Assembly: GCF_025061645.1 (NCBI RefSeq)
Contig: NZ_JANYMP010000001.1
Coordinates: forward strand, 800,213 to 839,076
Length of the DNA stretch: 38,864 nt
Direction: 5' to 3'
Source: Umezawaea endophytica
GTDB taxonomy: Bacteria > Actinomycetota > Actinomycetes > Mycobacteriales > Pseudonocardiaceae
Under the pieces are notes generated by a model, which had not been told where the DNA came from, searched no databases, and was given only the letters and a program-made list of their open reading frames with translations. Below are positions 17,715 through 38,148 of this stretch, piece by piece. The position numbers were made by a program, and so were the translations under genes. Position 1 is the first letter of the stretch, and each line of letters opens with the position of its first letter.

Positions 17715-19148
17715 CTAGGAGGTCTCGCTCAGGGCGATGTACTTCTCCTCCAGGAACTCCAGGATGCCGTCGGAGCTGCCCTCCCTGCCGAGCCCGCTCT
17801 GCTTCACCCCGCCGAACGGCGCCGCCGGGTCGCTCACGACCCCGCGGTTGACCGCGACCATGCCCGCCTCCAGCCGCCGGGCGACGGCGACGGCCTCGCG
17901 CTCCTCGCCGAACACGTACGCCATCAGGCCGTAGATGGTGTCGTTCGCCATCCGCACCACCTCGTCGACGTCGTCGTACCGCACGACCGCGACGACGGGA
18001 CCGAAGATCTCGACCGCGTTGATGGACGACCCGTGCCGCACGTCCGTCAGGAGGGTGACGTCGTAGAAGGCCCCCTTCTCAGAGGACTTCCCGCCGTGGA
18101 CGAGCGTCGCGCCCTCCTCGACGGCGGTGTCCACGATCGCCGCGACCTTGTCGCGCTCGGTGGTCGAGACGAGCGCCCCGACCTGGTGCGAGCGGTCGAG
18201 GCCGGGGCCGACCGTCAGCGCGGCCAGTTCGGCGGTCAGCCTCTCGACGAACTCGTCGTGCCGCGAACCGTGCACGTACACGCGGTTGGCGGCCGTGCAG
18301 GCCGCGCCGCCGTTGCGCATCTTCGCCGTCATCGTGCCCTCGATCGTGACGTCCATGTCGGCGCCGGGGAGCACGATCAGCGGCGCGTTCCCGCCCAGTT
18401 CCATCGAGGCGCTCACCACGCTGTCGGCGCAGGCGTGCAACAGGTCGCGGCCGACCTCGGTCGACCCGGTGAACGAGAGCTTGCGCACCTCCGGCCGGTC
18501 GATCATCCCGGCCACGAGGGGTCCGGTCGGCACCGGGGTCACCAGGTTCACCACACCGCTCGGCACCCCGGCCCGCCGCAGCACCTCGACCACGTACGCC
18601 GCCGTCAGCGGGGTTTCCCTGGCGGGCTTGAGGATCGTCGCGCACCCGGCCGCCAGCGCGGGGGCGAGCTTCCTCGTCGCCATGGCGGCGGGGAAGTTCC
18701 ACGGGGTGATCAGCAGCGAGACGCCGATCGGCTGGCGGTCGACGATGATGCGCTTGTCACCCGCGGGCGAGAGCCGGTACTCCCCTGGGATCCGCACGGC
18801 CTCCTCGGCGAACCAGCGGAAGAACTCCTTGGCGTAGTTGGCTTCGCCAACCGCGTCGGCCCAGGACTTGCCGTTCTCGCGGACGATGATCTCGGCGAAC
18901 CGCTCGACCTCGGCGGTGAGCACCTCGTAGGCGGACCGCAGGAGTTCGCCGCGTTCCCGCGGCGGGGTGGCGGCCCAGCTCTCCTGGGCGTTGGCGGCGG
19001 CGTCGACGGCGTCCGAGCAGTCGGCCTCGGTGGCGGCGGCGAAGCGGGCGATCACGCTGGAGTCGGACGGGTCGACCACGTCGAAGCGCTCGCCACCGCC
19101 GCCGGGGCGCCACACGCCGTCGATGAAGAGGTCGGCGAGGTAGGTCAT
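17715..19148 (-). CDS. NAD(P)-dependent aldehyde dehydrogenase (succinate-semialdehyde type)
   Basis: The protein has 477 aa, full family length. The substrate tunnel and cofactor motifs are intact: TPWNFP (148-153), KPARETP (174-180), FTGSTEVG (226-233), general base Glu250 in SMELGG and nucleophile Cys284 in GAACTAANR. The FTGSTEVG and GAACTAANR context is that of GabD-like succinate-semialdehyde dehydrogenases. It should oxidise an aldehyde, plausibly succinic semialdehyde, to the acid in the cytoplasm. It is the last gene of the IclR-cyclase-alcohol dehydrogenase operon and its ATG overlaps the preceding stop (ATGA). The HpcH/HpaI-type aldolase of the same island belongs to a family that releases succinic semialdehyde or related aldehydes, which would link the two. 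Substrate assignment is inference. Confidence 0.88.
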   Translation of the reverse strand: MTYLADLFIDGVWRPGGGGERFDVVDPSDSSVIARFAAATEADCSDAVDAAANAQESWAATPPRERGELLRSAYEVLTAEVERFAEIIVRENGKSWADAVGEANYAKEFFRWFAEEAVRIPGEYRLSPAGDKRIIVDRQPIGVSLLITPWNFPAAMATRKLAPALAAGCATILKPARETPLTAAYVVEVLRRAGVPSGVVNLVTPVPTGPLVAGMIDRPEVRKLSFTGSTEVGRDLLHACADSVVSASMELGGNAPLIVLPGADMDVTIEGTMTAKMRNGGAACTAANRVYVHGSRHDEFVERLTAELAALTVGPGLDRSHQVGALVSTTERDKVAAIVDTAVEEGATLVHGGKSSEKGAFYDVTLLTDVRHGSSINAVEIFGPVVAVVRYDDVDEVVRMANDTIYGLMAYVFGEEREAVAVARRLEAGMVAVNRGVVSDPAAPFGGVKQSGLGREGSSDGILEFLEEKYIALSETS

Positions 19149-20377
19149 CGGTCGCTCCGTTCCGCGAGGGTCCCGGTGTGGGCGTTGTGGAGGATGTCGA
19201 GCAGCACGGCCTGGTCCACCGGGATCGGCGCGATCGCGATCAGCCGAGCGGAGCGGGAGGCCAGCTCGGCGAGCTGCGGCAACTGCTGCCGGGAGATCCC
19301 GATCTCCTGGAGCGACGCGGGAACGCCGATCGCGTGGTTGAGCGCGACGATCGAGGAGATGGCGTCACGGGCCTTGTCGTCCACAGTGGACGACGCGGAC
19401 CCGAGGGCTCCGCCGACCGCCGCGATCCGCTCGACGACCCCGGTGTCGGACAGGCACGCCTGGAGCACGTACGGCAGCAGCAGCCCGGTCCCGAGGCCGT
19501 GCGGCGTCTTGGTGGCCGCGCCGATCGGGTACTGGAGGGCGTGCGAGAGGTGCGTCCCGGTGGCGCCGAACGAGACGCCCGCGACGAGGCTGCCGAAGGC
19601 GACCTCCTCCCGCGCCCGGCGGTTCCCCGGTTCGTCGACCGCCACCGGCAGCGAGGTCCCGAGCAGTTCGACCGCGCGCAGCGCCAGCACGTCGGAGAAC
19701 GCGTTGCGGCCGGTGAAGACGGGGAGCGTCGTGCCCCAGGAGGGGTCGAACTGGACGGCGGTGAACGACTCGACCGCGTGGACGAGCGCGTCGACGCCCG
19801 CGAACGCGGTCACGCTCCTCGGGGCGCCGAGGGTGAACTCCGGGTCGACGATCGCGGTGGTGGGGATCAGGTACGGGCTCGATATCCCCACCTTCATCTC
19901 CCGCTCGGGGTCGGACACCACGGCGACGGGCGTCACCTCCGACCCCGTCCCGGCGGTCGTCGGGACGGCGACCACGGGCAGGGACGGCCCCGGCACCAGG
20001 TTCTCGCCGTAGTACCGGCTCAACGGGCCGCCGTGCACGGCCAGCAGCCCGACCAGCTTCGCGGCGTCCAGCGCGCTGCCACCGCCCACGGCCAGGATGA
20101 CGTCGGGCTGGTGCTCGCGGGCGAACGCAGCCGCGGCCTCCAGCGACGCGGTCGGCAGTTCCGGCAGGACGTCGCTGTGCACGGCGACGTCGAACCCGTC
20201 CTCCCGCAGCCGGGTGAGCACCTCGTCGAAGATCGTGGACCCGATCAGGAACGGGTCGACGACCGCGAGCACCCGGTGGCCGCTGAGGCGGAGCACCTCG
20301 CTCAACTGCTCGCGCGTCCCGTAGCCGAAGTGGACGCGGGTCGGGAGCCGGAGCGTCCCGGTCATGACGTGGTTCAT
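19145..20377 (-). CDS. Iron-containing alcohol dehydrogenase
   Basis: The protein has 410 aa. The N-terminal Rossmann-like domain binds NAD(P) through GGGSALDAAK (98-107) and PTTAGTGSE (139-147). The C-terminal helical domain supplies the metal ligands Asp196 and His200 (DALVH), His279 (SHALQYPIG) and His293 (PHGLGTG). AGGAGG lies three bases from the ATG. Members reduce short hydroxyaldehydes or keto acids, or oxidise alcohols such as 4-hydroxybutyrate; maleylacetate reductases are a sister group. Its partner here is the downstream aldehyde dehydrogenase with a 4-bp overlap. An alcohol to aldehyde to acid sequence is the simplest reading. It belongs to the operon started by the IclR regulator. 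Confidence 0.88.
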   Translation of the reverse strand: MNHVMTGTLRLPTRVHFGYGTREQLSEVLRLSGHRVLAVVDPFLIGSTIFDEVLTRLREDGFDVAVHSDVLPELPTASLEAAAAFAREHQPDVILAVGGGSALDAAKLVGLLAVHGGPLSRYYGENLVPGPSLPVVAVPTTAGTGSEVTPVAVVSDPEREMKVGISSPYLIPTTAIVDPEFTLGAPRSVTAFAGVDALVHAVESFTAVQFDPSWGTTLPVFTGRNAFSDVLALRAVELLGTSLPVAVDEPGNRRAREEVAFGSLVAGVSFGATGTHLSHALQYPIGAATKTPHGLGTGLLLPYVLQACLSDTGVVERIAAVGGALGSASSTVDDKARDAISSIVALNHAIGVPASLQEIGISRQQLPQLAELASRSARLIAIAPIPVDQAVLLDILHNAHTGTLAERSDR

Positions 20378-20406
20378 CGTCCTCCTGCCTCGATGTGCGT
20401 CGGGCC

Positions 20407-21387
20407 CTACTTGAACGCGAGCGCGTTCGGCGGCGACCCCACCCCGCCGACGAGGTTCAGCGGCTTGCACGTCAGGAAGAACTCGTGGACGCCGTCGGCG
20501 GCGCAGTCGGCCGCGAGGTCGTCGAGCTTCCAGAGCTCGCCCATCGCCATGCCCAGCAGCGCGATGAGCGGGCGGTGCAGCATCCCGCTGTGGTCCACTC
20601 CCCGCTCCGGGGGCCGGTCGTCCGCGGAGCGGAAGTCGGACTCGACCACGGGGTCCGCCTCGACCGCCAGGTTGTCGGCCGCGACGAGGGCGATCTCGTG
20701 GTCCCAGAGCCAGCGCAGGACGGATTCCCGCTGCGCCAGCCCTGGTGATCTGTTGCGCTTGGTGAACTCCACGCGCTCCTCGACGGTCTTCGCGGTGTAG
20801 TTCTCGGCCCACCCGGTGCGGAGCAGCAGGATGTCGCCGCCCCGCCAGTCGACGCCCTGCGACCGCGCGACCGCGTCGAGCATCGCGTCGTCGATCGCGA
20901 TCGTCTGCTCGCAGTCGTACGGCAGGCCCTCGGAGGCGAAGTAGCGGGGGACGTCGAGCAGGACACCCCGGCCCGCGATGCCCGACTGCGCCCAGTTGTG
21001 GATGCCCAGCGCCGTCGAGCTTTCGTTGTTGTCAGCGGCGGGGAGCCCCCCGTAGAAGCCGTGCTCCGGGTGCCCGATGTGCCGCAGCGCGTCGAGCTGC
21101 GAGGTGGACTGGAGGTAGAACGAGTCGAGCCAGTCGTCGCGGTGGAACTCGTTGTTGGCGAAGACGTGGTGCTCGGTGCGGGGCCTGGTCCCGGTCGGGT
21201 AGGGCTCGAAGGCGTTGACCGGGTAGTCGAGGTTGAACCGGCGTCCGGTGCGGACCAGCCTGGCGGCGGCGGCAACCCGTTGGGGGGTGAGGAGGTTCAC
21301 CGTGCCGAGCTGGTCGTCCCGCCCGAAGACGTCCCAGCTCGACCCCGCGGTCTCGGCGTTCGACAGCTCGTCATAGGTCGGCAACAC
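20407..21387 (-). CDS. Cyclase-family metal-dependent hydrolase
   Basis: The protein has 326 aa of the Cyclase family (kynurenine formamidase / isatin hydrolase superfamily). It belongs to the longer form in which the metal motif reads STSQLDALRHIG with a following FYGG (residues 94-114), instead of the HxGTHxDxPxH of KynB. Other conserved stretches are NLLTP, GVLLDVPRY, GDILLLRTGW and DNLAVE. Members hydrolyse amide or lactone bonds in small ring or N-acyl compounds. The start is GTG, lying 17 bp inside the end of the IclR gene, so translation is coupled. It precedes the alcohol and aldehyde dehydrogenases in the same operon. The substrate is unknown; a ring-opening or deacylation step is inferred. 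Confidence 0.82.
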   Translation of the reverse strand: MLPTYDELSNAETAGSSWDVFGRDDQLGTVNLLTPQRVAAAARLVRTGRRFNLDYPVNAFEPYPTGTRPRTEHHVFANNEFHRDDWLDSFYLQSTSQLDALRHIGHPEHGFYGGLPAADNNESSTALGIHNWAQSGIAGRGVLLDVPRYFASEGLPYDCEQTIAIDDAMLDAVARSQGVDWRGGDILLLRTGWAENYTAKTVEERVEFTKRNRSPGLAQRESVLRWLWDHEIALVAADNLAVEADPVVESDFRSADDRPPERGVDHSGMLHRPLIALLGMAMGELWKLDDLAADCAADGVHEFFLTCKPLNLVGGVGSPPNALAFK

Positions 21388-22147
21388 GATTCCTCTCTTG
21401 GCCGCCCAGTTCGGCGCTGAGCGCGGCGGCGGTGTTCACCAGCTTGGCGAGGGTGGGCGACCCGGACGAGAGGTCGGCCATCTGGTCGGCTCCGAGCAGC
21501 GCGATGGTGGCGCAGATGCCGTACTCGTCGAACACCGGGGCCGCCGCGGCGAACAGGCCGTCGGAGTGGCTCACGATGCCGTAACCGTTGCGCCGGGCCA
21601 TGAAGACCGCGGCCTCCACCTCCGCCCGCTTGGCGTCCGAGATGCCCTCGGTGGCCCGCTCGAACGCCTGCTCGTCCTGGCAGGACAGGAAGACCCTCAT
21701 CTGCGCGGAGCTGAGGTCGAGCTGGGTTCCGGTGTGGACGGTCACGACGACCGTGCGGCTGAGGTCCTCGTTGACGAGCGCCACGACCGGCCCGTGCGCG
21801 CCCCAGACGGCGAGCACGGTGGTGGTGCGGACGGCGGCGCTGAGCTCCGACAGGTACGGCGGGGCGATCTTGATGACCCGCCGTTGCAGCGCGTGCATCC
21901 CGAGCTGCAACATCATGCCGCCCAGGACGAACGTGCCCCGCCGGTGCCCGCGCTCGAGGATGCCCGCCGTGACGAGCGAGGTGCAGTACCGGTACGCCGT
22001 CGTCCGGTTGAGCCCGAGCCGCTCGGCCACGTCGGCCGCCGTCAACTCGGTCGTGTGCGGGCCGAAGAGCGAGCAGATCTGGCCGACCCGCTGCACGGCC
22101 TGGATGTCGGAGCCGGAGGCGTCACCGGTCGAGTCAACGTTCGTCAT
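21371..22147 (-). CDS. IclR-family transcriptional regulator of the catabolic island
   Basis: The protein has 258 aa. The winged helix-turn-helix (residues 34-75: ELTAADVAERLGLNRTTAYRY, then AGILERG) is followed by an IclR effector domain ending with conserved GICATIALLG-like strands. It probably represses or activates the flanking genes on binding a pathway intermediate. The ATG at 22147 is preferred over an in-frame GTG at 22207. The reason is that a predicted -10 and the 15-bp operator at 22160-22174 fall between the two, which also suggests autoregulation. The same operator type precedes the binding-protein, permease and DUF6282 transcription units. It heads the operon with cyclase, alcohol and aldehyde dehydrogenases. 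Confidence 0.88.
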   Translation of the reverse strand: MTNVDSTGDASGSDIQAVQRVGQICSLFGPHTTELTAADVAERLGLNRTTAYRYCTSLVTAGILERGHRRGTFVLGGMMLQLGMHALQRRVIKIAPPYLSELSAAVRTTTVLAVWGAHGPVVALVNEDLSRTVVVTVHTGTQLDLSSAQMRVFLSCQDEQAFERATEGISDAKRAEVEAAVFMARRNGYGIVSHSDGLFAAAAPVFDEYGICATIALLGADQMADLSSGSPTLAKLVNTAAALSAELGGQERNRVADL

Positions 22148-22159
22148 GGCAGAACTGTA

Positions 22160-22174
22160 GTTCACATCGAGAAC
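22160..22174. promoter_or_regulatory. Predicted IclR operator, own promoter
   Basis: GTTCACATCGAGAAC is an inverted repeat GTTC-N7-GAAC, 13 bp before the IclR ATG. On the minus strand it directly follows GATTCT, a possible -10, so a bound protein would cover the transcription start. Confidence 0.55.
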
Positions 22175-22210
22175 AGAATCGGTGCGAGATGCGGGTTTCC
22201 GCGCCACACC

Positions 22211-23275
22211 TCAGCCCACCAGCCAGTTGCCGAGCTTGGTCGTGACCGCGTCGAAGTTCTGCGAGTACCAGTCGATGTCCTGGATCACCGACTTCCCGGT
22301 GTTCACCGGCCCGTTGACCTCCAGGAGCTTGCCGTTCTCGGAGAGGTTCGGCTTGGCGTTGAGGTTGATCGGCACGACCGCGAGGGCCTCGGCGATCTTC
22401 GCCGCGGGCTCGGGCTGCACCAGCGACTGGAGGAAGTCCTCGGCCGCCGCCTTGTGCTTCGAGCCGAGCGGCACGGCGAGCGCGTTGAGGGTGACCACGG
22501 TGGTGTCCCAGACCATCTTGACGTTCTTCTTGTCGTTGAGCAGGGAGATCATCCGCGAGTCGGGGAGGAGGAACATGTCGACCTGGTCGGCGCTGGCCGC
22601 CTGCTGCAACGCGCCGACGTTCGCGGCGAACAGGGTGTCCTTCCGGATGGTGTCCCACTTCCTCAGCGCGCGGTCGACGTCGAGCGGGTAGATCTTGTCC
22701 GGCGCGACGCCGTCGGCGAGCAGCGGGAACTCCAGGATCCCGTTCTGGAGGTTGGTGATGACGCCGCGCTTGCCGGGGAACTTGCCCGTGTCGAAGAAGT
22801 CCTTCAGCGTCTTGGGGCCCTCCGGGTACTTGGCCGCGTTATAGCCGAAGATCGTGGCGTTCGACCAGTTGCCGACGTAGCACTCCCCGATCGCCTGCGG
22901 CGTGAAGTCCTTGGGGTCCAGCTTGGGCACCGACAGCTTCTCGAAGAGCGTCCCGCAGTTCTGCTTCGCGGCGGCGGGCGCCACCGACATGACGTCCCAC
23001 TGCACGACGCCCGCCTGCACCTGGGCCTTGACCTGGGCGACGTCGGCGGGCGAGGAGTTGGCGAAGGTGATGTTGGGGTGCGCGGCGGTGTAGGGCTCCT
23101 GGAACGCCTTGATCTGCGCGTCCTGCCCGGACCCGCCGTAGGAGACGAACGTGAGCTTCTCCGGGCCACCGGTGCCGCTGGCGCTCCCGTCGTCGGCGCT
23201 TCCGCAGCTCGCCAGCAGCAGCGTCGCCACGGCGAAGGTGGCGCCCGCAAGGGCGGTTCTTGATCGAGACACCAT
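22211..23275 (-). CDS. ABC transporter solute-binding lipoprotein (spermidine/putrescine-binding type)
   Basis: The protein has 354 aa. A lipoprotein signal peptide ends in the lipobox LLASC with Cys24 as the lipidated residue, so it is anchored outside the membrane. The mature part is a class of periplasmic-binding fold related to PotD and iron/thiamine binders (KLTFVSYGGSGQDAQ near the N-terminus, WDVMSVAP, GYNAAKYP, a late WY.QNFD). It should capture the substrate of the island for the two permeases. Unusually it is the last of the four transporter genes and is separated from them by a terminator and its own operator-bearing promoter, allowing it to be made in excess. GAGAGG precedes the ATG. 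The PotD relation does not prove that polyamines are the ligand. Confidence 0.88.
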   Translation of the reverse strand: MVSRSRTALAGATFAVATLLLASCGSADDGSASGTGGPEKLTFVSYGGSGQDAQIKAFQEPYTAAHPNITFANSSPADVAQVKAQVQAGVVQWDVMSVAPAAAKQNCGTLFEKLSVPKLDPKDFTPQAIGECYVGNWSNATIFGYNAAKYPEGPKTLKDFFDTGKFPGKRGVITNLQNGILEFPLLADGVAPDKIYPLDVDRALRKWDTIRKDTLFAANVGALQQAASADQVDMFLLPDSRMISLLNDKKNVKMVWDTTVVTLNALAVPLGSKHKAAAEDFLQSLVQPEPAAKIAEALAVVPINLNAKPNLSENGKLLEVNGPVNTGKSVIQDIDWYSQNFDAVTTKLGNWLVG

Positions 23276-23322
23276 TGTCCAAACCTCTCGTGGGGAGCCT
23301 GCCTGCCAGCCGATCGACACTT

Positions 23323-23337
23323 GTTCACCAGGTGAAC
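23323..23337. promoter_or_regulatory. Predicted IclR operator at the solute-binding protein promoter
   Basis: GTTCACCAGGTGAAC is a perfect 7-1-7 palindrome, 48 bp before the start of the binding protein gene. A further half-site GTGAAC (23353-23358) abuts TATTCT on the minus strand (23364-23359), a plausible -10. It is the most symmetric of the sites in the island. Confidence 0.65.
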
Positions 23338-23464
23338 TTACGACTCCGTGATGTGAACAGAATAGCCGCGAATGCCTGGTAGGTACAGCACTGAAGCCCT
23401 GAACGGCCCTGTTCGTGGCCGAAACGCGTCCTGCGATCCGCGGGTCCGCCAGTACGCGGGCACG

Positions 23465-23507
23465 CGAACGGAACGCGCCGTCGGGGGACGGCGGCGCGTT
23501 CCGTTCG
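23465..23507. terminator. Terminator after the ABC ATPase gene
   Basis: A perfect 15-bp stem (CGAACGGAACGCGCC) with a 13-nt loop starts 31 bp past the ATPase stop. It separates the permease-ATPase transcript from the binding protein gene, which therefore needs its own promoter. Confidence 0.8.
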
Positions 23508-23537
23508 GACGATCGGGCGGGGAGGACCGGGCCCCGG

Positions 23538-24671
23538 TCAGGCCGCGACGATCCGCTGCGCCCTCGGCCGCCACCACACCACGACGTCGTCGCCGATGGC
23601 GTAGTCGCCGCGGAGCGCGCTGACGCGGGCGCGGCCGAACAGCCCGCGGTCCCCGATCGTGAGCAGCAGCGTGCGGTACGAGCCCATGTACTCGACGTCG
23701 CGAACCGCCGCCCGCACGGCGTTGGCGCCGACGGGCACGGCGTCGCGCCCGGCCGCGACCTCGACGTCCTCGGGTCGCACGACGATCGCGCTCCCCTTGC
23801 CGACACCGGGGTGCGCGGCGACGGTGGCGGGGTCGACGCCCCAGCTCTCGCCCTCCCACGCGACGGCCCCGCCGAGGTCGGCCTGCCCGAGCTCGAACAC
23901 GTTCGAGTCGCCGAGGAACCTGGCGGTGAAGAGGGTCTCCGGCTCGGCGTAGAGCTGCTGCGGCGTGCCGACCTGCTCGATGCGCCCGTTGTTGAACAGC
24001 GCGATCCGGTCGGCGAGGTTCATCGCCTCCTCCTGGTCGTGCGTCACGAAGACGAACGTGGACCCGACCTCGCGGTGGATCCGGCGGATCTCCGTCTGCA
24101 ACGCCGACCGCAGGTTGCGGTCGAGCGCGCCGAGCGGTTCGTCCAGCAGGAGGGCCTTGGGTTCGAAGACGATCGCGCGGGCCAGCGCGACCCGCTGCTG
24201 CTGCCCGCCGGAGAGCTTCGACGGGTGGGTGTCGTCGCGGCCGGTCAACTGCACGAGTTCCAGGACCTCGGCGACCTTCCTGGCGATCTCCTGCTTGCCC
24301 ACCTTGCGCTGGCGCAACGGGTACGCGACGTTCTGCGCGATCGTCATGTGCGGGAACAGCGCGTAGTTCTGGAACAGCATGCCGAGGTTGCGGCGGTGCG
24401 GCGGCACGTCGCTCACGTCGGCCCCGTCGAGCGAGATCGTGCCCGCGGTGAGGGTCTCGAACCCGGCGATGAGGTTCAGCGTGGTCGTCTTGCCCGACCC
24501 GCTCGGCCCGAGCAGCGTCATGAACTCGCCGGGCTCGATCGTCAGCGAGATGTCGTCGACCGCGGGGGCCGCGAGCCCGTAGTCCTTGGTGACGCCCTCC
24601 AGGCGGATCTCGGTGCCCCGCTTGGTCTCCCGCGGCGATCCGGTGACCTCCACGGTGGTCTGACGTGTCAT
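23538..24671 (-). CDS. ABC transporter ATP-binding protein (PotA-like, with TOBE domain)
   Basis: The protein has 377 aa. Walker A GPSGSGKT (55-62), Q-loop Gln101 (FQNYALFPH), signature LSGGQQQR (153-160), Walker B ALLLDEP (173-179) and the switch histidine in FVTHDQEEA are all present. The last 90 residues form the TOBE regulatory domain (VRPEDV, YMGSYRTLLL). It powers import through the two upstream permeases; the family fits the polyamine/iron/opine group of CUT1-like ATPases. The ATG overlaps the stop of the preceding permease (ATGA). The 20-residue polar N-terminal extension before the ATPase core is typical of actinobacterial members. Confidence 0.93.
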   Translation of the reverse strand: MTRQTTVEVTGSPRETKRGTEIRLEGVTKDYGLAAPAVDDISLTIEPGEFMTLLGPSGSGKTTTLNLIAGFETLTAGTISLDGADVSDVPPHRRNLGMLFQNYALFPHMTIAQNVAYPLRQRKVGKQEIARKVAEVLELVQLTGRDDTHPSKLSGGQQQRVALARAIVFEPKALLLDEPLGALDRNLRSALQTEIRRIHREVGSTFVFVTHDQEEAMNLADRIALFNNGRIEQVGTPQQLYAEPETLFTARFLGDSNVFELGQADLGGAVAWEGESWGVDPATVAAHPGVGKGSAIVVRPEDVEVAAGRDAVPVGANAVRAAVRDVEYMGSYRTLLLTIGDRGLFGRARVSALRGDYAIGDDVVVWWRPRAQRIVAA

Positions 24672-25507
24672 GGTCGCGGCTCCTGTCGACTGCCTGCCCG
24701 GCCGCGGAGCAGCAGGGGCAGGATGAAGATGATGGTCACGGCCACCACCATCAGGCTCGATGCGGCCGAGATCGTCGGGTCGATCTCGACGGTGACGCTG
24801 TTGTACATCTGGACTGGCATGGTCTGGAACAGCGGGGAGCGCAGGAACAGCGCGATCACGACCTCGTCGAACGAGACGATGAACGCGAAGATCCCGCCCG
24901 TCAGGACGCCGCGGCTGATCAGCGGCAGCGTCACGCGGACGAACGAGGTCAGCGGCGAGGCGCCGAGCGACGCCGAGGCCTTCAGCAGCCGCTGGTCGAA
25001 GCCGCCGAGCGCCCCGGTGACGGAGACGAGCACGTACGGGACGGCGATGGCGGTGTGCGCGAGCACGTACCCGGTCACCGTGCCGGTGAGCCGCCAGCCG
25101 AGGAACGAGATGTACACCGCGACCGCGACGACGATCGCGGGCGAGACGATCGGCACCATCAGCAACGTGCGGACGAACCTGGCCGCCCTGCCGTCCAACC
25201 GGGACAGCGCCACGGCCGCCGCGGTGCCCACCGTCGTGGCCAGCACCGCGGTGAGCGAGGCGACCAGGAACGAGTTGCCGAGCGAGTCGAGCCACACCGG
25301 GTTCGTGAAGAAGTTCTCGTACAGCCGCCACGAGAAGCCCGGTGGCGGGAACTGGAACGTCGTCGCGGAGCTGAAGCTCATCGGGATGACGAACAGCGTC
25401 GGCAGGATGAAGAAGGCGATGACGAGGCCGCCGACGACCTTGAGCCACCACGGGATCGGGTCGACGGTGTCGGGTCGCCGACGGGTGCGCGCTGGGCTGC
25501 TCATCAT
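24668..25507 (-). CDS. ABC transporter permease (PotC-like)
   Basis: The protein has 279 aa with six predicted membrane segments. The EAA-type coupling loop reads ASASLGASPLTSFVRVTLPLI. It forms the import channel together with the upstream PotB-like permease. Two consecutive ATGs lie at 25507 and 25504; the first overlaps the upstream stop as ATGA, so it is taken as the start. The N-terminal 18 residues are positively charged and cytoplasmic. Its stop overlaps the ATPase start in the same way. Confidence 0.92.
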   Translation of the reverse strand: MMSSPARTRRRPDTVDPIPWWLKVVGGLVIAFFILPTLFVIPMSFSSATTFQFPPPGFSWRLYENFFTNPVWLDSLGNSFLVASLTAVLATTVGTAAAVALSRLDGRAARFVRTLLMVPIVSPAIVVAVAVYISFLGWRLTGTVTGYVLAHTAIAVPYVLVSVTGALGGFDQRLLKASASLGASPLTSFVRVTLPLISRGVLTGGIFAFIVSFDEVVIALFLRSPLFQTMPVQMYNSVTVEIDPTISAASSLMVVAVTIIFILPLLLRGRAGSRQEPRP

Positions 25508-26361
25508 CGGTCCTTCGGTTGGCTGGTCGCGACCACACCGATCGCGGACACGGTGCCGCCCACCCGGTTCGCCCACACGACGAGCACGAGCGTGATGACC
25601 AGCACGACCATGCCGAGCGCTCCCGCGGCGGCGAAGTCGAGCAGGAGGGTGGTGCGCTGGGCGAGCAGTTGGGCGACGAGCGACTGCTGCGGCGACCCGA
25701 GCAGGGCGGGTGTCACGTAGAACCCGAGGCTGAGCGTGAACACCAGCATCACGCCCGCCATCACCCCGCCGCGGGACAGCGGCCAGAAGACCTTCCAGAA
25801 CGCGGCCGTCGGGGACGAGCCGAGGCCCCTGGCGGCGAGCAGCAGCTTCCGGTCGATCGCGCCGAGCGTGCTGAACAGCGGCAGCACCATGAACGGGAGC
25901 ATCACCTGGGTCATCGCGATCGTGACCCCGGCGGTGGTGCCGTAGAGGACCACGTCGTCGATGCCGACGGCCTCGAACGCGCTCTGCACCGGCCCGCCGT
26001 CCTGGAGGATGATGATCCAGGCGAAGTTGCGGGCCATCACGGACGTCCAGAACGGGATCAGCACGACCACCAGCAGGATCCCCCGCGTGCGGGCGCTCAC
26101 CCGTGTCATCAGGTACGCGTACGGGTAGCCGAGCAGCAGGGCGGCGATCGTCACCGTGGCGGCGGTCAGCGCAGTGCGCCCCAGCACCGTCATGGTCACG
26201 CCGTCGGTGAAGAGGTGCTCGTAGTTGGCCAGCGTCAGGTCCGGGTTGGACACGCTGCGGACGAAGGTCTTGCCGAGCGGTACCAGCAGGATTCCGGCCA
26301 GCAGGGCGAGCGCGGGCACCAGCGGGAGCCAACTCGACCACCTGATCTTGTTCGAGGACAT
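25504..26361 (-). CDS. ABC transporter permease (PotB-like)
   Basis: The protein has 285 aa with six membrane segments. The coupling loop reads AARGLGSSPTAAFWKVFWPLS. It is the first gene of the permease-permease-ATPase transcript. The ATG of MSSNKIRW has AAGGGGACAAGG just upstream; an in-frame start 14 residues earlier is rejected because it lacks such a site and adds an unconserved tail. A predicted IclR operator lies 69-83 bp upstream, so the transporter can be switched separately from the upstream enzyme genes. Confidence 0.92.
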   Translation of the reverse strand: MSSNKIRWSSWLPLVPALALLAGILLVPLGKTFVRSVSNPDLTLANYEHLFTDGVTMTVLGRTALTAATVTIAALLLGYPYAYLMTRVSARTRGILLVVVLIPFWTSVMARNFAWIIILQDGGPVQSAFEAVGIDDVVLYGTTAGVTIAMTQVMLPFMVLPLFSTLGAIDRKLLLAARGLGSSPTAAFWKVFWPLSRGGVMAGVMLVFTLSLGFYVTPALLGSPQQSLVAQLLAQRTTLLLDFAAAGALGMVVLVITLVLVVWANRVGGTVSAIGVVATSQPKDR

Positions 26362-26429
26362 CCTTGTCCCCTTCCGGCTCGAAGCTGACGGCCAGTAAAG
26401 CAAGCCGTTGTTCAGGTCGCAATCGTGAG

Positions 26430-26444
26430 GTTCAGATCGTGAAC
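26430..26444. promoter_or_regulatory. Predicted IclR operator upstream of the permease genes
   Basis: GTTCAGATCGTGAAC has 5-bp arms GTTCA/TGAAC and the same 15-bp length as the other sites. A second half-site copy GTTCAGGTCG begins exactly 20 bp away at 26410. Both lie between the SDR gene and the first permease. Confidence 0.6.
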
Positions 26445-26517
26445 TCTCTGTGGCCAGAGTGCACGCGAACAGCGGAAACAGGCGAAATTTGACTTCGCAT
26501 CCCGAACACGGACCGTG

Positions 26518-27303
26518 TCAGGCGCTGTACCCGCCGTCGACGGGCAGGACGACGCCGCTGACGTGGCTCGCGCGGTCGCTCAGCAGCCACGCGGCGGCGT
26601 TGGCCGTCTCGGTCGTCGTGCCCGCCTTCCGCAGCGGGACCGCGGCGAGCCTGCGCTCCACGGCCGCCGGGTCCTCCGCCCGCCACTTCGCGAACATCGG
26701 GGTCTCGGTCGGGCCGGGGGCGATGACGTTGACGCGGATGCCGAGCGGCCCGTTGTCGTGGGCCGCCGTGCGGGTGAGGCCGATGACCGCGTGCTTCGTC
26801 GCCTGGTAGGCGCCGAGGCCGGTGTTGCCGCGGAACCCGCCCACGCTGCTCGTGTTGACGATCGACCCACCGGACTCGCGCATCGCCCGGATCTCCTCGC
26901 GCAGGCACAGCCAGACGCCCTTGACGTTCACCGCCATGACCCGGTCGAAGTCCTCCTCCGACACGTCGTCGAGCCTGCCGTACTGGTTGACGCCCGCGTT
27001 GTTGAACGCGCCGTCGAGCCTGCCGAACCTGGCGAGCGTCGCGTCGACGAAGCGCGCGACGTCGGCCCCGACGCTGACGTCACCCGCGGTGTGGGCCACG
27101 TCGTGGCCCGCCGCGGTGAGGTCGTCGGTGAGCGCCGCGAGCGTCTCCTCCGAGCGCGCCGCGATCATCACCGAGGCGCCCTCCTCGGCGAACACCCTCG
27201 CGGCGTCGGCCCCGATGCCGGTGCTCCCGCCGACCACGAGGACGACCTTGCCCGCGAGCAGCCCGGTTCCCGACTGCGTCTGCGCCTGTGCGTTGTCGGA
27301 CAA
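26518..27303 (-). CDS. Short-chain dehydrogenase/reductase
   Basis: The protein has 261 aa of the classical SDR family. The NAD(P) motif GGSTGIG is at 25-31, NNAG at 101-104, the catalytic serine in NTSSVGG (152-153), and Tyr166/Lys170 in YQATK. APGPTETPM and VDGGYSA complete the family pattern. Arg50 after the second strand (AARSEE) favours NADP(H). It oxidises a hydroxyl or reduces a ketone of a pathway intermediate. The start is TTG with GGGAGG eight bases before; no ATG or GTG fits. It is the last gene of the DUF6282-led enzyme operon, 69 bp after the aldolase gene. Confidence 0.88.
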   Translation of the reverse strand: MSDNAQAQTQSGTGLLAGKVVLVVGGSTGIGADAARVFAEEGASVMIAARSEETLAALTDDLTAAGHDVAHTAGDVSVGADVARFVDATLARFGRLDGAFNNAGVNQYGRLDDVSEEDFDRVMAVNVKGVWLCLREEIRAMRESGGSIVNTSSVGGFRGNTGLGAYQATKHAVIGLTRTAAHDNGPLGIRVNVIAPGPTETPMFAKWRAEDPAAVERRLAAVPLRKAGTTTETANAAAWLLSDRASHVSGVVLPVDGGYSA

Positions 27304-27372
27304 GGTGTCCGCCTCCCGGTTCTCGGTGTGATCTTGGTGCCGACCCTGGCACGACGTGCCGGTTCGTGCCCG

Positions 27373-28173
27373 TCAGCGGTGTTCGCCCGCCGGTCGGCCG
27401 ACCGACCGTCCCGCCCGGACGGCGGCGGCAGCGGCGGCGCCGAGCAGGCTGGCGTCGTTGCTGAGCATCGTGAACGTGTACCCGGCCTCGACGGCGGCCC
27501 GCACCGACTGCTCGGTCGCCCCTCCGGCGTTGCCGATCGGCTTGCCCGCGGCGGTGCAGCCCGCGATGGCCAGTGCGATCAGCTCGACGACGCGGGGGTC
27601 GCCCTCGGTGGTCGACTCGGAGGTGCTGAGGTCCGCGGCGCCGACGAGCAGCGCGTCCACACCGTCCACCGAGGCGATCTCCTTCGCCGACCTGGCCGCG
27701 TCCGCGCTCTCGACCTGCGCGATGAACACGACCTCCTCCTGGCCGAAGCGCAGGTACTCGGCCCGGTCCAGCGCGCCCCAGGCACCCGCGCGGCTCGTCG
27801 CGCCGACACCCCTCGTGCCCAGCGGCGGGAAGCGGACGGCCCGCACCGCCGCCTCGGCCTCGGCGACCGTGTCGACGTGCGGCAGCATGATCCCCTCCGC
27901 GCCCGAGTCGAGGACGCGTTGGACGACGCCGGCGTCCAGCGCGGGGATCCGCACGATCGGCGCCACGCCCAGGTGGCTCGCGGTGCCGATCAGCCGGTAG
28001 GCCGTCTCCAGGTCGATCGGCGAGTGCTCGAGGTCGATCACCACGAAGTCGAAGCCCGCCAGCGCGATCAGCTCGACGCTCTCCACCACCGGGAGCTTCA
28101 CCCACGTGCCGAGCGCGGGCCCGTCGGGACGGGCGAGCGCGGCGCGGAACAGGCTCCTGCGCGGCGCCGTCAT
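27373..28173 (-). CDS. HpcH/HpaI-family class II aldolase
   Basis: The protein has 266 aa. Family residues are visible: His50 in DLEHSP, Arg75 in VRIP, metal ligands Glu155 (AQVES) and Asp181 (VGAADLS), and GTRGVG for phosphate or carboxylate binding. Such enzymes cleave 4-hydroxy-2-keto acids, for example into pyruvate plus an aldehyde such as succinic semialdehyde, using a divalent metal. In this island it could supply the aldehyde for the dehydrogenase at 17715-19148. The ATG overlaps the stop of the cupin gene (ATGA). It resembles hydroxy-ketoheptanedioate or 2-keto-3-deoxy acid aldolases equally well; the substrate is not decided. Confidence 0.88.
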   Translation of the reverse strand: MTAPRRSLFRAALARPDGPALGTWVKLPVVESVELIALAGFDFVVIDLEHSPIDLETAYRLIGTASHLGVAPIVRIPALDAGVVQRVLDSGAEGIMLPHVDTVAEAEAAVRAVRFPPLGTRGVGATSRAGAWGALDRAEYLRFGQEEVVFIAQVESADAARSAKEIASVDGVDALLVGAADLSTSESTTEGDPRVVELIALAIAGCTAAGKPIGNAGGATEQSVRAAVEAGYTFTMLSNDASLLGAAAAAAVRAGRSVGRPAGEHR

Positions 28174-29087
28174 CGGGCGGGGTAGTCGGTCGCGTTGAGC
28201 ACCCAGCCGGGACGGGCGGAGAAGTCCTGCCGCGGCGGGGAGAAGATGTCGACGAGCTGCTGGTGCGGTCCGACGCCCTGGGTCGTGTGGACGCTCGGCG
28301 GCGGGATGACGGTCACCGACGGTGAGCCGACCCGGCCGTGGTCCTCGGGCCGCCAGGCGGTCGAGTCCGGCCCCCACGGGTACTGCATGTGGTGGATGAA
28401 CTCGCCCTTGAGCGCCAGCGAGAGCTGTTCGAAGTCGTCGTGGTGGTGCGGGGAGAGCTTGAGCGGGTCGCGCGGCGTGCGCTCCTCGGCGAGGAAGTTC
28501 ACCATCAGGTTCGTGGTCCGGAAGATCCGGCCGAACCTGCCCTCGGCGATCGGCGTCTCCGCGAGCCGGTGGACGCGCAGCCGGAAACCGCCCACCGGGT
28601 CCGGCCACGGCACGAGCGGGGCGCAGCGCGGGTCCGGCTCGGCGTAGGCGTCGGCGTTGGCCGCCGCGGCGCGCAGGTCCTCGGCGACGGAGGAGAACAC
28701 CCGGATGACGGGGCCCGCGGTCCGCGCCTCGACGACGCTGTCGCCCGGCGGGACCACGACGAACGCCTCCTCGGCCACCTCCGCCTTCTCGCCGCCTGCG
28801 ACGACCCGGATCGAGGCGCTGTCGGAGTGCAGCAGGAGGGCGTACTCGTCGGGCTGGTCGTCGCGGATGAAGCAGTCGCCCGCGACCGCGTCGGTGTAGG
28901 CGAGCACCACGTTCTGCCCGCGCACGACCCAGGTCCGGCTGCCCGCGGGGCTGACGGTGGTCGGCGGCTGACCGGTGAACTCCAGGTACTGGGCCGCGGC
29001 GACGGGGGTGGACGGGTCGACCGCCACCCGGTCGGGCGGGACGCTCGCCAACTGCGACCTGATGTCGTCCTTGGCGTACATCGTCAT
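28170..29087 (-). CDS. Cupin-fold protein of unknown function
   Basis: The protein has 305 aa with two cupin-like halves. The second (residues 190-290) carries a metal-binding pattern HHHDDFEQLSLALKGEF and a later histidine in PSVHTTQGVG, so it probably binds a metal. The first half (residues 40-135) keeps the fold (AYTDAVAGDCFI, EEAFVVVPPGDS) but lacks histidines. Candidates are a ring-cleaving or small-molecule dioxygenase, an isomerase, or a sensor; I do not recognise the exact family. Its ATG overlaps the stop of the beta-keto acid cleavage gene, and its end overlaps the aldolase start, which places it firmly in the enzyme operon. Confidence 0.75.
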   Translation of the reverse strand: MTMYAKDDIRSQLASVPPDRVAVDPSTPVAAAQYLEFTGQPPTTVSPAGSRTWVVRGQNVVLAYTDAVAGDCFIRDDQPDEYALLLHSDSASIRVVAGGEKAEVAEEAFVVVPPGDSVVEARTAGPVIRVFSSVAEDLRAAAANADAYAEPDPRCAPLVPWPDPVGGFRLRVHRLAETPIAEGRFGRIFRTTNLMVNFLAEERTPRDPLKLSPHHHDDFEQLSLALKGEFIHHMQYPWGPDSTAWRPEDHGRVGSPSVTVIPPPSVHTTQGVGPHQQLVDIFSPPRQDFSARPGWVLNATDYPAR

Positions 29088-30043
29088 GTCGACACCTCTC
29101 GTGATCGTTGGGTGGTGGTGTTCCGCGCGCCCTTGAGGACCAGCGCCTTGCGGACGTCGGCGGGCGTCGCGATCTCCTTGCCCAGTCCGGTGAGGACCTC
29201 CCGGACCTTGCGCACCTGCTGGGCGTTGCCGGTCGCCTTCTCGCCCTTGCCGATGTACAGGTTGTCCTCCAGGCCGACGCGCACGTGACCGCCCAGCCAC
29301 GCGCTGTGCGTGCAGAACTCCAGTTGGTGGCGGCCCGCGGCGAAGGCGGAGAAGTGGTAGTCGTCGCCGAAGAGCTTGTCCGCGATGGCGACCATGTGCG
29401 TGAGGTTGGCGTGGTCGGCCCCGATGCCGCCGAGGATCCCGAAGACGCCTTGGACGAGGAACGGCGGCTTGGCGAGACCGCGGTCGGCGAAGTGGGCGAG
29501 GGTGTACAGGTGGCCGATGTCGTAGCACTCGTACTCGAACCTGGTCCCGCCCCGCTCCCCCAGCTCCCGCAGCGAGTACTCGATCTGCTCGAAGGAGTTG
29601 ATGAACGGCTTGCGGTAGGTGTTCTCGACGTAGGGCTTCTCCCACGCGTGCTTCCAGTTCGTCACCTTGTCGGCGATGCCGGAGTAGACGAAGTTCATCG
29701 AGCCCATGTTGAGCGAGGCCAGCTCGGGGCTGAACCGGGCCGCCGCGGCGAGCCGCTCCTCGATGGTCATCGACGACGCGCCGCCGGTGGTGATGTTGAC
29801 GACCGCGTCGCACGCCGCCGCGATCGGCGGGATGATCTCCTCGAACACCTCGGGTTCGAACGCGGGCCTGCCGTCCTCCGGGTGCCTGGCGTGCAGGTGG
29901 ATGACGGCCGCTCCGGCCTCCGCCGCGGCCAGCGACTCCTCGACGATCTGCTGGGGCGTGATCGGCAGGTGGTCGCTCTGCGACGGCACGTGGACCGAAC
30001 CCGTCACCGCGACGCTGATGATCACGCGGTCCGCGGCGATCAC
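29084..30043 (-). CDS. Beta-keto acid cleavage enzyme (BKACE, 3-keto-5-aminohexanoate cleavage family)
   Basis: The protein has 319 aa. The TIM barrel has zinc ligands His49 and His51 in VIHLHARHPEDGRP and Glu259 in VGLEDN, as in Kce. NITTGG and GGHVRVGLEDN are family signatures. These enzymes react a beta-keto acid with acetyl-CoA to give acetoacetate and a new acyl-CoA; substrate range is wide and set by the barrel lining. The start is GTG overlapping the DUF6282 stop as GTGA, with GGAGG ten bases upstream; a longer frame extending into the hydrolase gene is rejected. It implies that the pathway runs through a beta-keto acid. Confidence 0.88.
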   Translation of the reverse strand: MIAADRVIISVAVTGSVHVPSQSDHLPITPQQIVEESLAAAEAGAAVIHLHARHPEDGRPAFEPEVFEEIIPPIAAACDAVVNITTGGASSMTIEERLAAAARFSPELASLNMGSMNFVYSGIADKVTNWKHAWEKPYVENTYRKPFINSFEQIEYSLRELGERGGTRFEYECYDIGHLYTLAHFADRGLAKPPFLVQGVFGILGGIGADHANLTHMVAIADKLFGDDYHFSAFAAGRHQLEFCTHSAWLGGHVRVGLEDNLYIGKGEKATGNAQQVRKVREVLTGLGKEIATPADVRKALVLKGARNTTTQRSREVST

Positions 30044-30963
30044 GACGGGTCGTCCTCCAGGCCCAGCAGGAACGCGGGGTTGCCCGCGATCATCCGCCGG
30101 ACGTCCTTCTCGGGCACACCGTGGTCGAGGAGCGCCCCGACGAGGTAGAGGTAGCCGTCGACGGGCAGCGGGTTGCCCTCCTGGCCGAGGTCGGACGAGA
30201 TGACCGTCCTCTCGGGACCGACGCGGTCGATCCAGTCCAGGAGCTGCTTGATCGGCCACCCGATCGCGGTCACCTCGGGGTGGTACATGGCGATCTCGTG
30301 CTCGACGTAGGCGCCGAGCCCCACCAGTTCCTCGATGTCGGACTCCGACGCGCCGACGATGAAGTCGGGGTGCTGGAGGAGCAGCCGCCGGACGCCCTTG
30401 TCCTTGGCGACCCGGAACAGCGCCTTGGCGGGCTCGCCGCCCAGGTGGCCGCCGGTGAGCAGCGCGCCGGTCTCGGCGACGATGTCGACGACGCCGCGCG
30501 TGCCCGCCGAGACCTCCCCGGACTCGTCGAAGATGGACACCTCCGTCTCGGCCAGGTCGATGGCGGCCGCGGGGAAGTCACCGCCGTGGCTGTGGTGGTC
30601 GATGTGCTGGCGCGAGCACGTGGTCGGCGCCCAGACGCACCGCCCGCCCATCCGCAGGCTCATCGCGACGGCCGACGGGTTCATCCCGCCGACCTCGCTG
30701 TTGAGCGCGACCCCGCCGTACACCGGCGTCGGCGCGTCCGCGAGCCAGGTGCTCATGGCGAGCAGGTCCATCACCGTGTTGTGGTGGTGCGACTTGACGA
30801 GGATCGCCCGCATGCCGATGCGCGCCCCGTCGTAGGAGGCCTCGACGTGGTTCAGCCGCCGCGGGAACGGACTGGGCCCCGAGTGGCAGTGCAGGTCCAC
30901 GGCGCCGTTCAGGACCTTCAGCAACGCCGGTGAGACCGGCTGCGCTTCCCCGGCTGAGAGCAT
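30040..30963 (-). CDS. DUF6282-type metal-dependent hydrolase (amidohydrolase-like)
   Basis: The protein has 307 aa. It looks like a TIM-barrel amidohydrolase: a HxH metal motif in VDLHCHSG (23-30), a Lys-His-His stretch KSHHHNT (57-63), HIDHHSHGGDF near 120, a QHPD and a late Asp in ISSDLGQ. I recognise it as the DUF6282 family, whose reaction is not established. GGAGG lies six bases before the ATG. It is the first gene of the enzyme operon and sits under the best promoter-operator pair of the island. By position it may carry out the first hydrolytic step on the imported compound, which is inference. Confidence 0.75.
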   Translation of the reverse strand: MLSAGEAQPVSPALLKVLNGAVDLHCHSGPSPFPRRLNHVEASYDGARIGMRAILVKSHHHNTVMDLLAMSTWLADAPTPVYGGVALNSEVGGMNPSAVAMSLRMGGRCVWAPTTCSRQHIDHHSHGGDFPAAAIDLAETEVSIFDESGEVSAGTRGVVDIVAETGALLTGGHLGGEPAKALFRVAKDKGVRRLLLQHPDFIVGASESDIEELVGLGAYVEHEIAMYHPEVTAIGWPIKQLLDWIDRVGPERTVISSDLGQEGNPLPVDGYLYLVGALLDHGVPEKDVRRMIAGNPAFLLGLEDDPS

Positions 30964-30989
30964 GTGCGACCTCCGTGAGGTACGGACTG

Positions 30990-31032
30990 TGAACAGTTCG
31001 TTCAGCATACGGATCGCACTGGACCCTGTCTA
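30990..31032 (-). promoter_or_regulatory. Promoter and overlapping operator of the DUF6282-led enzyme operon
   Basis: On the minus strand TAGACA (31032-31027), a 17-bp spacer and TATGCT (31009-31004) form a near-consensus housekeeping promoter. Immediately after the -10 lies TGAACAGTTCGTTCA (plus strand 30990-31004), an inverted repeat TGAAC-N5-GTTCA covering the expected start point, 27 bp before the ATG. A protein bound there would block transcription. Confidence 0.6.
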
Positions 31033-34145: not shown

Positions 34146-34625
34146 TCAGGGCTTCGGCAGCACGCACGCGGTGTCGAGGCCCAGCACGCGGTTCAACCTG
34201 CCGAACGCGAGCCACGAACCGATGCTCATGCTCAGCTCCACGATCTCCACCTGGCTGTAGTGCGCGGTCATCCGGGACCAGAACTCGTCGTCGATGCCGT
34301 GGTGATCCAGTGCGTACCGCTCGGCGTACTCCGCGGCCAGCCTGGTGCGGTCGTCGAAGGCGTCGGTGGTGCGCCACTGGGTCACCGCGTCGGCGAACTC
34401 CTCCTCGACCTTCTGACCGTCCCGGTCGGTCCGCCAGTCGAGGCAGAACAGGCACCCGTTGATCTGGGCGACCCGCAGCCGCGCGGCCTCGAACTCGCGC
34501 AGCCCCAGGGTGGTGTGGCTGTACACCGACAGCGAGAGGTTCGCGGCGGCGATCCCGATGCCGGGGACCATCTCGCCCCACACGTAGCCGATCGGGTCCT
34601 TGCCCTGCGGGATGTCGATGTTCAT
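34146..34625 (-). CDS. Carboxymuconolactone decarboxylase-family (AhpD-like) protein lacking the relay His
   Basis: The protein has 159 aa of the CMD/AhpD fold. Cys58 and Cys61 are present (NGCLFC), but the residue four positions on, His in AhpD, is Arg65 (CLDWRT), so a classic AhpD peroxidase proton relay is absent. Relatives with CxDWR exist and are generally uncharacterised. AAGGA lies seven bases from the ATG. It is coupled by an ATGA overlap to the upstream DapB-like dehydrogenase, suggesting one operon and a shared role. It converges on the cholesterol oxidase gene with only 25 bp between and no obvious hairpin. Confidence 0.82.
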   Translation of the reverse strand: MNIDIPQGKDPIGYVWGEMVPGIGIAAANLSLSVYSHTTLGLREFEAARLRVAQINGCLFCLDWRTDRDGQKVEEEFADAVTQWRTTDAFDDRTRLAAEYAERYALDHHGIDDEFWSRMTAHYSQVEIVELSMSIGSWLAFGRLNRVLGLDTACVLPKP

Positions 34626-38065: not shown

Positions 38066-38148
38066 GCGGTGGAGGCCGCTCGACCGAACCGGGATCACGA
38101 GACACCGCCCGGATTCGTGTTTTCGCAGTTCATAGGACTATTGTGAGC

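Follow-up and report, generated by a model that had tools for sequence, protein, structure and literature searches.

Beta-keto acid cleavage enzymes (BKACEs) take part in two described catabolic pathways whose gene clusters are comparable with the one analyzed here. In the available part of its description (PMC10470551), the phloroglucinol cluster of Clostridium scatologenes (PGR, DPGC, TfD, TAL) combines a cyclase-family hydrolase, a 3-hydroxy acid dehydrogenase and a BKACE-family lyase, and the oxidative deoxyribonate pathway, as far as the accessible part of PMC6365646 describes it, unites a short-chain dehydrogenase (SDR) and a BKACE in one cluster. Thus, the pairing of BKACE with a cyclase or with an SDR exists in known pathways, but neither of the two, according to the same parts of these papers, has the gene set considered in this work, a 13-gene cluster of Umezawaea endophytica (Actinomycetota). 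The cluster lies in a stretch of 38,864 nucleotides (assembly GCF_025061645.1, contig NZ_JANYMP010000001.1, positions 800,213 to 839,076 of the forward strand), hereafter the window, to which all coordinates below refer; the genome holding it is 11.0 Mb in size. Compared with the C. scatologenes cluster, the window adds a DUF6282 protein, a bicupin, an HpcH-type aldolase, an iron-containing alcohol dehydrogenase (Fe-ADH), an aldehyde dehydrogenase (ALDH) and an ABC importer, and its cyclase is of a divergent subtype; TfD, moreover, is annotated in the available text as a 3-hydroxyacyl-CoA dehydrogenase, whereas the window enzyme is an SDR. From the deoxyribonate pathway, in its accessible description, the window differs by having no lactonase or deoxyribose dehydrogenase and by having an extra aldolase branch. 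The homoprotocatechuate hpa/hpc pathway resembles it in carrying an HpcH/HpaI-fold aldolase and an SSADH-like ALDH in one cluster; however, the window HpcH scores 162 bits against a 369-bit HpaI cut-off, the ALDH falls below the SSADH cut-off, and the dioxygenase, isomerase/decarboxylase and hydratase, which we take to belong to that pathway, are missing from the 13 genes. The closest likeness at the level of a single enzyme is with the 3,5-dioxohexanoate:acetyl-CoA enzymes of model NF053538 and BKACE15 of Paracoccus denitrificans (8RIO/8RIP/9HNF), as the window BKACE exceeds the cut-off of the model and keeps the Tyr and the HLH motif; its gene neighbourhood, in contrast, is unlike the phloroglucinol and deoxyribonate clusters, and 3,5-dioxohexanoate is at most a candidate substrate here. 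In the open-access papers searched we found none containing 'DUF6282' and none describing the window gene set; PMC6449761, considered as such a paper, was rejected, its available passages concerning other genes, and the remaining papers retrieved dealt with BKACEs, phloroglucinol or unrelated subjects. A homologous cluster with a known substrate, which the preliminary description of this DNA had named as an argument against its own reading, was not found in those papers either.

All 13 genes are located on the minus strand and run from position 30963 down to 17715 in the order DUF6282, BKACE, cupin, HpcH, SDR, two permeases, ATPase, solute-binding lipoprotein, IclR regulator, cyclase, Fe-ADH and ALDH, exactly as had been described. 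Twelve of the 13 earlier gene assignments agreed with Pfam and NCBIfam; the cupin did not reach the cut-off of any family in either database, yet its predicted structure is a bicupin. The statement that ATGA/GTGA overlaps bind most neighbours proved too strong: with the starts chosen here, 4-nt overlaps occur at 6 of the 12 junctions and a 17-nt overlap at one, the other five being gaps of 29, 63, 69, 156 and 262 nt. The view of the locus as a dedicated uptake-and-degradation cluster is supported by our data, and we read it as an IclR-controlled catabolic cluster for one external small molecule, probably a cyclic compound or lactone that is oxygenated and bears a carboxylate, giving this reading, together with the pathway proposed below, about even chances.

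The most constant core of the cluster comprises a DUF6282 subgroup (30040..30963) and an unannotated metal-site bicupin (28170..29087), usually with the HpcH aldolase (27373..28173). A pattern scan of named genomes found 90 relatives, of which the best 80 loci (L numbers below) were kept, some strains contributing two or three; they were compared with 59 control stretches of 19.9 kb from seven cluster-bearing related genomes (60 were drawn and one was dropped), accepting matches at E <= 1e-10, at least 30% identity and coverage of half of the query. DUF6282 was matched in 80 loci and no control, a count that is circular, as it served as the bait; the cupin was matched in 77 loci, HpcH in 71, IclR in 68, BKACE in 36 and cyclase in 34, all without a single control match, SDR in 49 loci versus 4 controls and ALDH in 43 versus 4. 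Because DUF6282, cupin, HpcH, BKACE, cyclase and IclR were each found in 0 of 59 controls, the gene set is not a chance neighbourhood. Cupin occurred together with DUF6282 in 77 of the 80 loci and with HpcH in 71, always less than 5 kb apart. Among the 32 loci with DUF6282 at least 63% identical to that of the window, the solute-binding protein and IclR were found in 31 each, cupin and BKACE in 30, HpcH and SDR in 29, cyclase in 27, and Fe-ADH and ALDH in 22, the latter two lying beyond the fetched flank in window-like loci; the corresponding counts in the other 48 were 46 for cupin, 41 for HpcH, 37 for IclR and 6 for BKACE. Twenty neighbourhoods were inspected in the order to which U. endophytica belongs, and the nine closest (DUF6282 64-66% identical) keep DUF6282, BKACE, cupin, HpcH, SDR, Fe-ADH and ALDH collinear, their importer genes lying divergently on the opposite side; no fewer than three of the nine come from the same genomes as L096, L097 and L099. 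The nearest named relative found was Umezawaea tangerina, whose DUF6282 is 95% identical to that of the window. The close loci, the 32 closest ones and the controls all agree that the gene set is conserved together in other genomes, one of the two outcomes on which the preliminary description had staked its interpretation.

The DUF6282 protein matches PF19799 with 214 bits. Its AlphaFold model (mean pLDDT 92.2) is a TIM-barrel, the top PDB matches of which are mostly amidohydrolases, phosphotriesterases and lactonases (TM-score 0.5-0.6, 11-17% identity), and H25, H27, K57, H59, H173, H198 and D258 are among the residues invariant in 52 sequences. The HxH, the later His residues and the late Asp thus follow the pattern which we take to be that of amidohydrolase-type metal ligands, placing the protein in the amidohydrolase superfamily, and the invariant residues fit a metal site predicted on this basis. 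The cupin model (mean pLDDT 93.1) shows the double-stranded beta-helix of a bicupin with a single metal motif, H214, H216, E220 and H267, presumably the H-x-H-x3-E ... H site of the cupin superfamily; H214, H216, Q221 and H267 are invariant and E220 nearly so in 53 sequences, along with many invariant Arg, His and Trp residues. Its best Foldseek matches in PDB are general cupins only (TM-score ~0.5, 10-14% identity), including quercetin dioxygenase, oxalate decarboxylase, ureidoglycine aminohydrolase and BacB. A PDB sequence search gave nothing convincing for DUF6282 or the cupin.

Both core proteins were also used as queries over genomes of the order, at most five candidates being scored per genome, so that the counts are lower bounds. 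DUF6282 was present in at least 63 of 397 genomes, of which 18 hold a copy at least 44% identical; in a phylum-wide draw it was found in 18 of 296 genomes, the copies outside its own genome being 28-39% identical. The cupin as its own query gave 21 near-full-length places in 18 of the 397 genomes, all 21 within 3.7 kb of a DUF6282 match, and three more weak partial matches (E 2e-4 to 1e-3) in genomes without a DUF6282 match. A search of 396 genomes of the phylum with the cupin alignment returned its own genome only, which, with at most five candidates scored per genome, is not evidence of absence. One 9.2-Mb genome (G306) contains five DUF6282 and three cupin matches in clusters of differing make-up.

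Among 72,556 plasmid records, the cupin was detected in 27 and DUF6282 in 45, and the DUF6282-bicupin core is present also on alphaproteobacterial plasmids. Ten stretches chosen from the DUF6282 records contain HpcH in eight cases and the cupin in seven; seven chosen from the cupin records contain HpcH in six and DUF6282 in two. The one cupin-chosen stretch without HpcH comes from the Agrobacterium plasmid pAt1D1108b; here the cupin stands beside ALDH and an RraA-family gene (L163:4967-8885), some RraA relatives being pyruvate aldolases. Neither HpcH nor DUF6282 was matched in this stretch, and an acyl-homoserine-lactone synthase gene lies about 7 kb away. The cupin is therefore tied most tightly to DUF6282 in Actinomycetota and to HpcH on the sampled plasmids. 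An apparent cupin-aldolase fusion in L112 was rejected, since by eye the 568-aa frame is out of frame after the cupin.

The second gene of the cluster, that of BKACE (29084..30043), matches PF05853 with 327.5 bits (cut-off 24.8) and, over its full length, the 3,5-dioxohexanoate equivalog NF053538 with 470.7 bits (cut-off 430). In the alignment to 8RIO the catalytic Tyr (ECYD) falls at window residue 174, and HLH, which we take to be the BKACE metal site, at residues 49-51. Tyr173 of PdKce is given as the catalytic Tyr of canonical BKACEs in the available part of PMC12871164. Presumably, the window enzyme would cleave a 3-oxo acid with acetyl-CoA. Other loci end differently, as was seen with end-module queries picked from the loci themselves after reading them: BKACE was present in 36 of the 80 loci, a thiolase of the L102 type in 18, and both in only two (Fisher p 0.001, which overstates independence, as the loci are related by descent and the queries come from members of the set). 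Either BKACE, a CoA-transferase pair or acetoacetate-CoA ligase was found in 52 of the 80 loci and in none of the 59 controls. Thiolase-bearing L102 also carries CoA-transferase subunits, ALDH, SDR and a sulfonate/taurine-type importer, the latter below the cut-offs of its models; L127 combines cyclase, DUF6282, cupin, HpcH, a FAH-like protein (below cut-offs) and an acetoacetate-CoA ligase (820 bits versus a 521-bit cut-off). On a plasmid of Rhodococcus opacus G13 (L167:10897-13668), HpcH and acetoacetate-CoA ligase are joined in one 923-aa frame with both Pfam domains, the HpcH half being 68% identical to that of the window over 232 residues and the ligase half 56% identical to that of L127; a cupin (64% identical) precedes it. 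The fusion adjoins a catechol-dioxygenase-like VOC protein and an alpha/beta hydrolase. Since in other clusters a CoA-transferase, alone or with thiolase, or acetoacetate-CoA ligase takes the place of BKACE, the gene content suggests a 3-oxo acid as the final form of the fragment that the aldolase branch releases, in line with the beta-keto acid intermediate proposed in the preliminary description.

The 13 genes do not, however, form a conserved unit, as cyclase, Fe-ADH, ALDH, SDR, BKACE and importer come and go around DUF6282 and cupin. Several further observations weigh against our interpretation. Six of the 77 cupin-bearing loci (L075, L080, L110, L114, L132 and L148) show no HpcH next to the cupin, and L136 has neither; the best HpcH copies elsewhere in these seven genomes are 42-52% identical, and the coordinates place those for L080 and L148 within another DUF6282-cupin cluster of the strain concerned (L102 and L137). 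The DUF6282 family reaches far beyond the core, 45 of the 63 genomes holding distant copies only, with no cupin found there, and five of the seven cupin-chosen plasmid stretches have no DUF6282 match. BKACE is the sole enzyme exceeding a curated equivalog cut-off among the models listed. With regard to the end module, 28 of the 80 loci carry no BKACE, CoA-transferase pair or acetoacetate-CoA ligase, and 14 of the 80 also have neither the L102 thiolase nor the L108-type CoA-transferase, some of them being on cut contigs; thiolase by itself is weak evidence (18 of 80 loci versus 4 of 59 controls), the ligase occurs in one of the 80 loci and one plasmid stretch, and BKACE and the CoA-transferase pair stand together in 6 of 80, as would be expected if the transferase merely activates acetoacetate. 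No second plasmid record covers 80% of the G13 fusion frame, and a base-calling error behind it has to be reckoned with. Finally, a hydratase or tautomerase role of the cupin is read from its neighbourhood alone, and bicupins include dioxygenases, decarboxylases and isomerases. Among the loci without HpcH, L075, L080 and L148 are DUF6282-cupin clusters that keep BKACE; in L110, L114 and L132 a lipocalin-like protein and at least two amidohydrolase-like proteins come after the cupin, whose other side is occupied by CoA-transferase-like subunits and a probable CoA ligase.

Uptake is assigned to a PotABCD-type importer with two permeases, PotB/PotH-like (25504..26361) and PotC-like (24668..25507), identified by Pfam/NCBIfam and both below their own equivalog cut-offs, a PotA-like ATPase (23538..24671) and one solute-binding lipoprotein (22211..23275; PF13416, SBP_bac_8), the translation of which contains LLAS-C, presumably a lipobox-like motif. 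The ATPase exceeds the cut-off of the broad potA subfamily TIGR01187 (362.8 versus 355.6 bits; for ATPase, SDR and ALDH the best 25 NCBIfam models were compared), which does not imply a substrate. Regulation is assigned to the IclR-family protein (21371..22147, with the start at ATG 22147 or GTG 22207; PF09339), whose helix-turn-helix domain scores 42 bits. HpcH (PF03328, HpcH_HpaI, 108 bits) had the HpaI model TIGR02311 as its best NCBIfam match (162.4 bits, cut-off 368.8) and was not filed as HpaI for this reason; nor was ALDH (17715..19148; PF00171, Aldedh, 505 bits) filed as SSADH, scoring 486.9 bits with TIGR01780 against a cut-off of 646.35. HpcH, IclR and Fe-ADH (19145..20377; PF00465) are below the cut-offs of all NCBIfam models listed for them, 17 in the case of Fe-ADH. 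As HpcH, Fe-ADH, ALDH and IclR fall below cut-offs, their substrates are not readable from the family names, and the semialdehyde oxidized to a dicarboxylate, suggested in the preliminary description, receives no specific support.

Upstream of DUF6282, the close loci share a sigma-70-type promoter, represented in the window by TAGACA-N17-TATGCT (31004..31032, minus strand). Its common form, TAGACA-N17-TANNNT, was defined on the six closest loci, L071-L076, and is present in all of them and in L088, L090, L098 and L146 (10 of the 80 loci), but not in L077-L079; the window contains it once, and both strands of 1,174,100 control bases not at all. The last promoter base is overlapped by the palindrome TGAAC-N5-GTTCA, TGAACGAACTGTTCA (30990..31004, minus strand), which has a single exact copy in the window and four in the control bases. 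In 9 of 9 closest loci, L071-L079, it is found at -32 to -42 (eight exact, one with one mismatch); with up to one mismatch in the 230 upstream bases examined, it is found in 13 of 80 loci, the four beyond L071-L079 being one-mismatch copies; more distant clusters are mostly without it. The simplest reading, which we consider likely, is that of a predicted repressor site for the local IclR. As the longest-frame start of the DUF6282 gene, ATG 31008, falls within the common -10 box and a GGAGG lies shortly before ATG 30963, the latter is probably the true start, and an automatic start call at ATG 31008 would probably be wrong.

From these data we infer the order of import, hydrolysis, cupin, HpcH and BKACE. 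The compound would be taken in by the PotABCD-type importer and opened or hydrolyzed to an oxo acid by the cyclase-family protein and the metal-dependent amidohydrolase-fold DUF6282 protein; the bicupin would tautomerize or hydrate the oxo acid to a 4-hydroxy-2-oxo acid, the presumed substrate of HpcH, which would split it into pyruvate and a fragment. This fragment would be a 3-oxo acid or be converted to one by Fe-ADH, ALDH and SDR, enzymes that could act before or after the aldolase; BKACE with acetyl-CoA would then yield acetoacetate and a shortened acyl-CoA, the last step being performed in other genomes presumably by 3-oxoacid CoA-transferase and thiolase or by acetoacetate-CoA ligase. 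A more specific version, an undescribed degradative cassette, is offered only tentatively, the odds being clearly against it: the bicupin, of a new kind, would be a hydratase/tautomerase, HpcH would carry out a ketone-releasing retro-aldol cleavage of a tertiary 4-hydroxy-2-oxo acid directly to pyruvate and a 3-oxo acid, taken by one of three unrelated enzyme systems (BKACE, CoA-transferase/thiolase or acetoacetate-CoA ligase), and DUF6282 would be the hydrolase feeding this cassette.

A different role of the cyclase-family protein (20407..21387) would follow if the pathway resembled that of phloroglucinol, with the cyclase opening a cyclic 1,3-diketone by retro-Claisen hydrolysis, SDR oxidizing a 3-hydroxy acid, BKACE splitting a 3,5-dioxo acid, and DUF6282, cupin and HpcH serving another part of the molecule. 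We regard this as unlikely. The window cyclase is a weak match to PF04199 (50 bits), and a PDB sequence search gave one relative, the uncharacterized 5IBZ. Isatin-hydrolase-type cyclases have the metal motif HxGTHxD. This motif, shared with the dihydrophloroglucinol cyclohydrolase type, is not present in the window protein, which has STSQLDALRH in its place, and Q-[LI]-D-[AS]-LRH is found in 29 of 32 orthologues and unmatched in three; judged by these motifs, the window cyclase is a divergent subtype. Besides, the cyclase is present where no BKACE was found (L120, L127, L130, L131, L133, L136 and L137) and missing from four BKACE clusters (L096, L097, L099 and L100), whose genomes' best relatives are at most 42% identical, an absence that counts also against the pathway we propose; the window cluster, with its one SDR, has no candidate phloroglucinol reductase. 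In favour of such a route, the window BKACE passes the 3,5-dioxohexanoate model, and in C. scatologenes a cyclase-family enzyme, a 3-hydroxy-5-oxohexanoate dehydrogenase and a BKACE-family lyase perform these three steps, according to the available part of PMC10470551.

Improbable to a similar degree is an aromatic meta-cleavage cassette, in which cupin and HpcH would replace the usual hydratase and 4-hydroxy-2-oxovalerate aldolase, the window cluster being a lower pathway supplied by ring-cleavage genes at another place in the genome. In Rhodococcus opacus strain 9 cupin and HpcH indeed lie beside an MhpA-like hydroxylase, flavin reductase, NTF2-like protein, alpha/beta hydrolase and BphC, strain G13 has the VOC protein and hydrolase mentioned above (the fetched stretches of both strains contain no DUF6282 match), and in L112, L116 and L118 genes for an FAD hydroxylase and a VOC protein lie close to DUF6282. 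However, the 13 genes include no ring-cleavage dioxygenase and have their own importer and regulator, and most DUF6282-cupin loci carry no such genes in the flanks fetched: a VOC protein was matched in 13 of the 80 loci, and an FAD hydroxylase in 4 of them as against 1 of the 59 controls.

Still less credit can be given to a deoxyribonate-like route, where the SDR (26518..27303; PF13561/PF00106), passing only the broad subfamily NF005559 (223 versus 215 bits), would oxidize a 3-hydroxy sugar acid to a 3-keto acid for BKACE, and HpcH, ALDH and Fe-ADH would handle a second sugar-acid fragment. BKACE directly adjoins SDR in L147, L148, L062-L064 and L068, and the accessible part of PMC6365646 links deoxyribonate use genetically to SDR and BKACE in three genera, with a milder BKACE phenotype in one species; against it stand the absence of sugar kinase, lactonase and glycerate kinase from the 13 genes, the reported activity of the BKACE15 relative on alkyl 3-oxo acids, and the aromatic ring-cleavage-type genes adjoining cupin and HpcH in Rhodococcus. 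A biosynthetic cluster for a secondary metabolite is very improbable: a BKACE relative may act in biosynthesis, as BsfD does in the flavophos cluster (PMC12871164, available part), but BsfD is without the catalytic Tyr according to the same text, while the window enzyme retains it, and the full importer with its lipoprotein, IclR, the aldolase and the replacement of BKACE by CoA-transferase/thiolase or acetoacetate-CoA ligase point to breakdown.

Outside the cluster, no common insertion site could be demonstrated, since none of seven flank proteins of the window was matched in the stretches fetched for seven close loci. The flanks encode a 719-aa protein with PNPOx_N, FAD/NAD reductase and 2Fe-2S domains (35939-38098), adjoined by a DAP_DH_C/DapB_N protein (34622-35902), and a 1320-aa protein with ThuA, glucose/sorbosone dehydrogenase-like, PKD, F5/8 type C and 3-keto-disaccharide hydrolase domains (992-4954).

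Taken together, the locus is an orphan, well-conserved catabolic cluster with two uncharacterized core enzymes rather than a categorically new kind of system. It links two families without an assigned reaction, the DUF6282 subgroup and the bicupin, to each other and mostly also to a pyruvate aldolase, both in actinobacteria and on plasmids of alphaproteobacteria, and their function can be asked jointly, with pyruvate and a 3-oxo acid as predicted products, a predicted regulator site and many test organisms at hand. Solving the pathway would close a gap in what is known of bacterial carbon catabolism and assign DUF6282 its first reaction.

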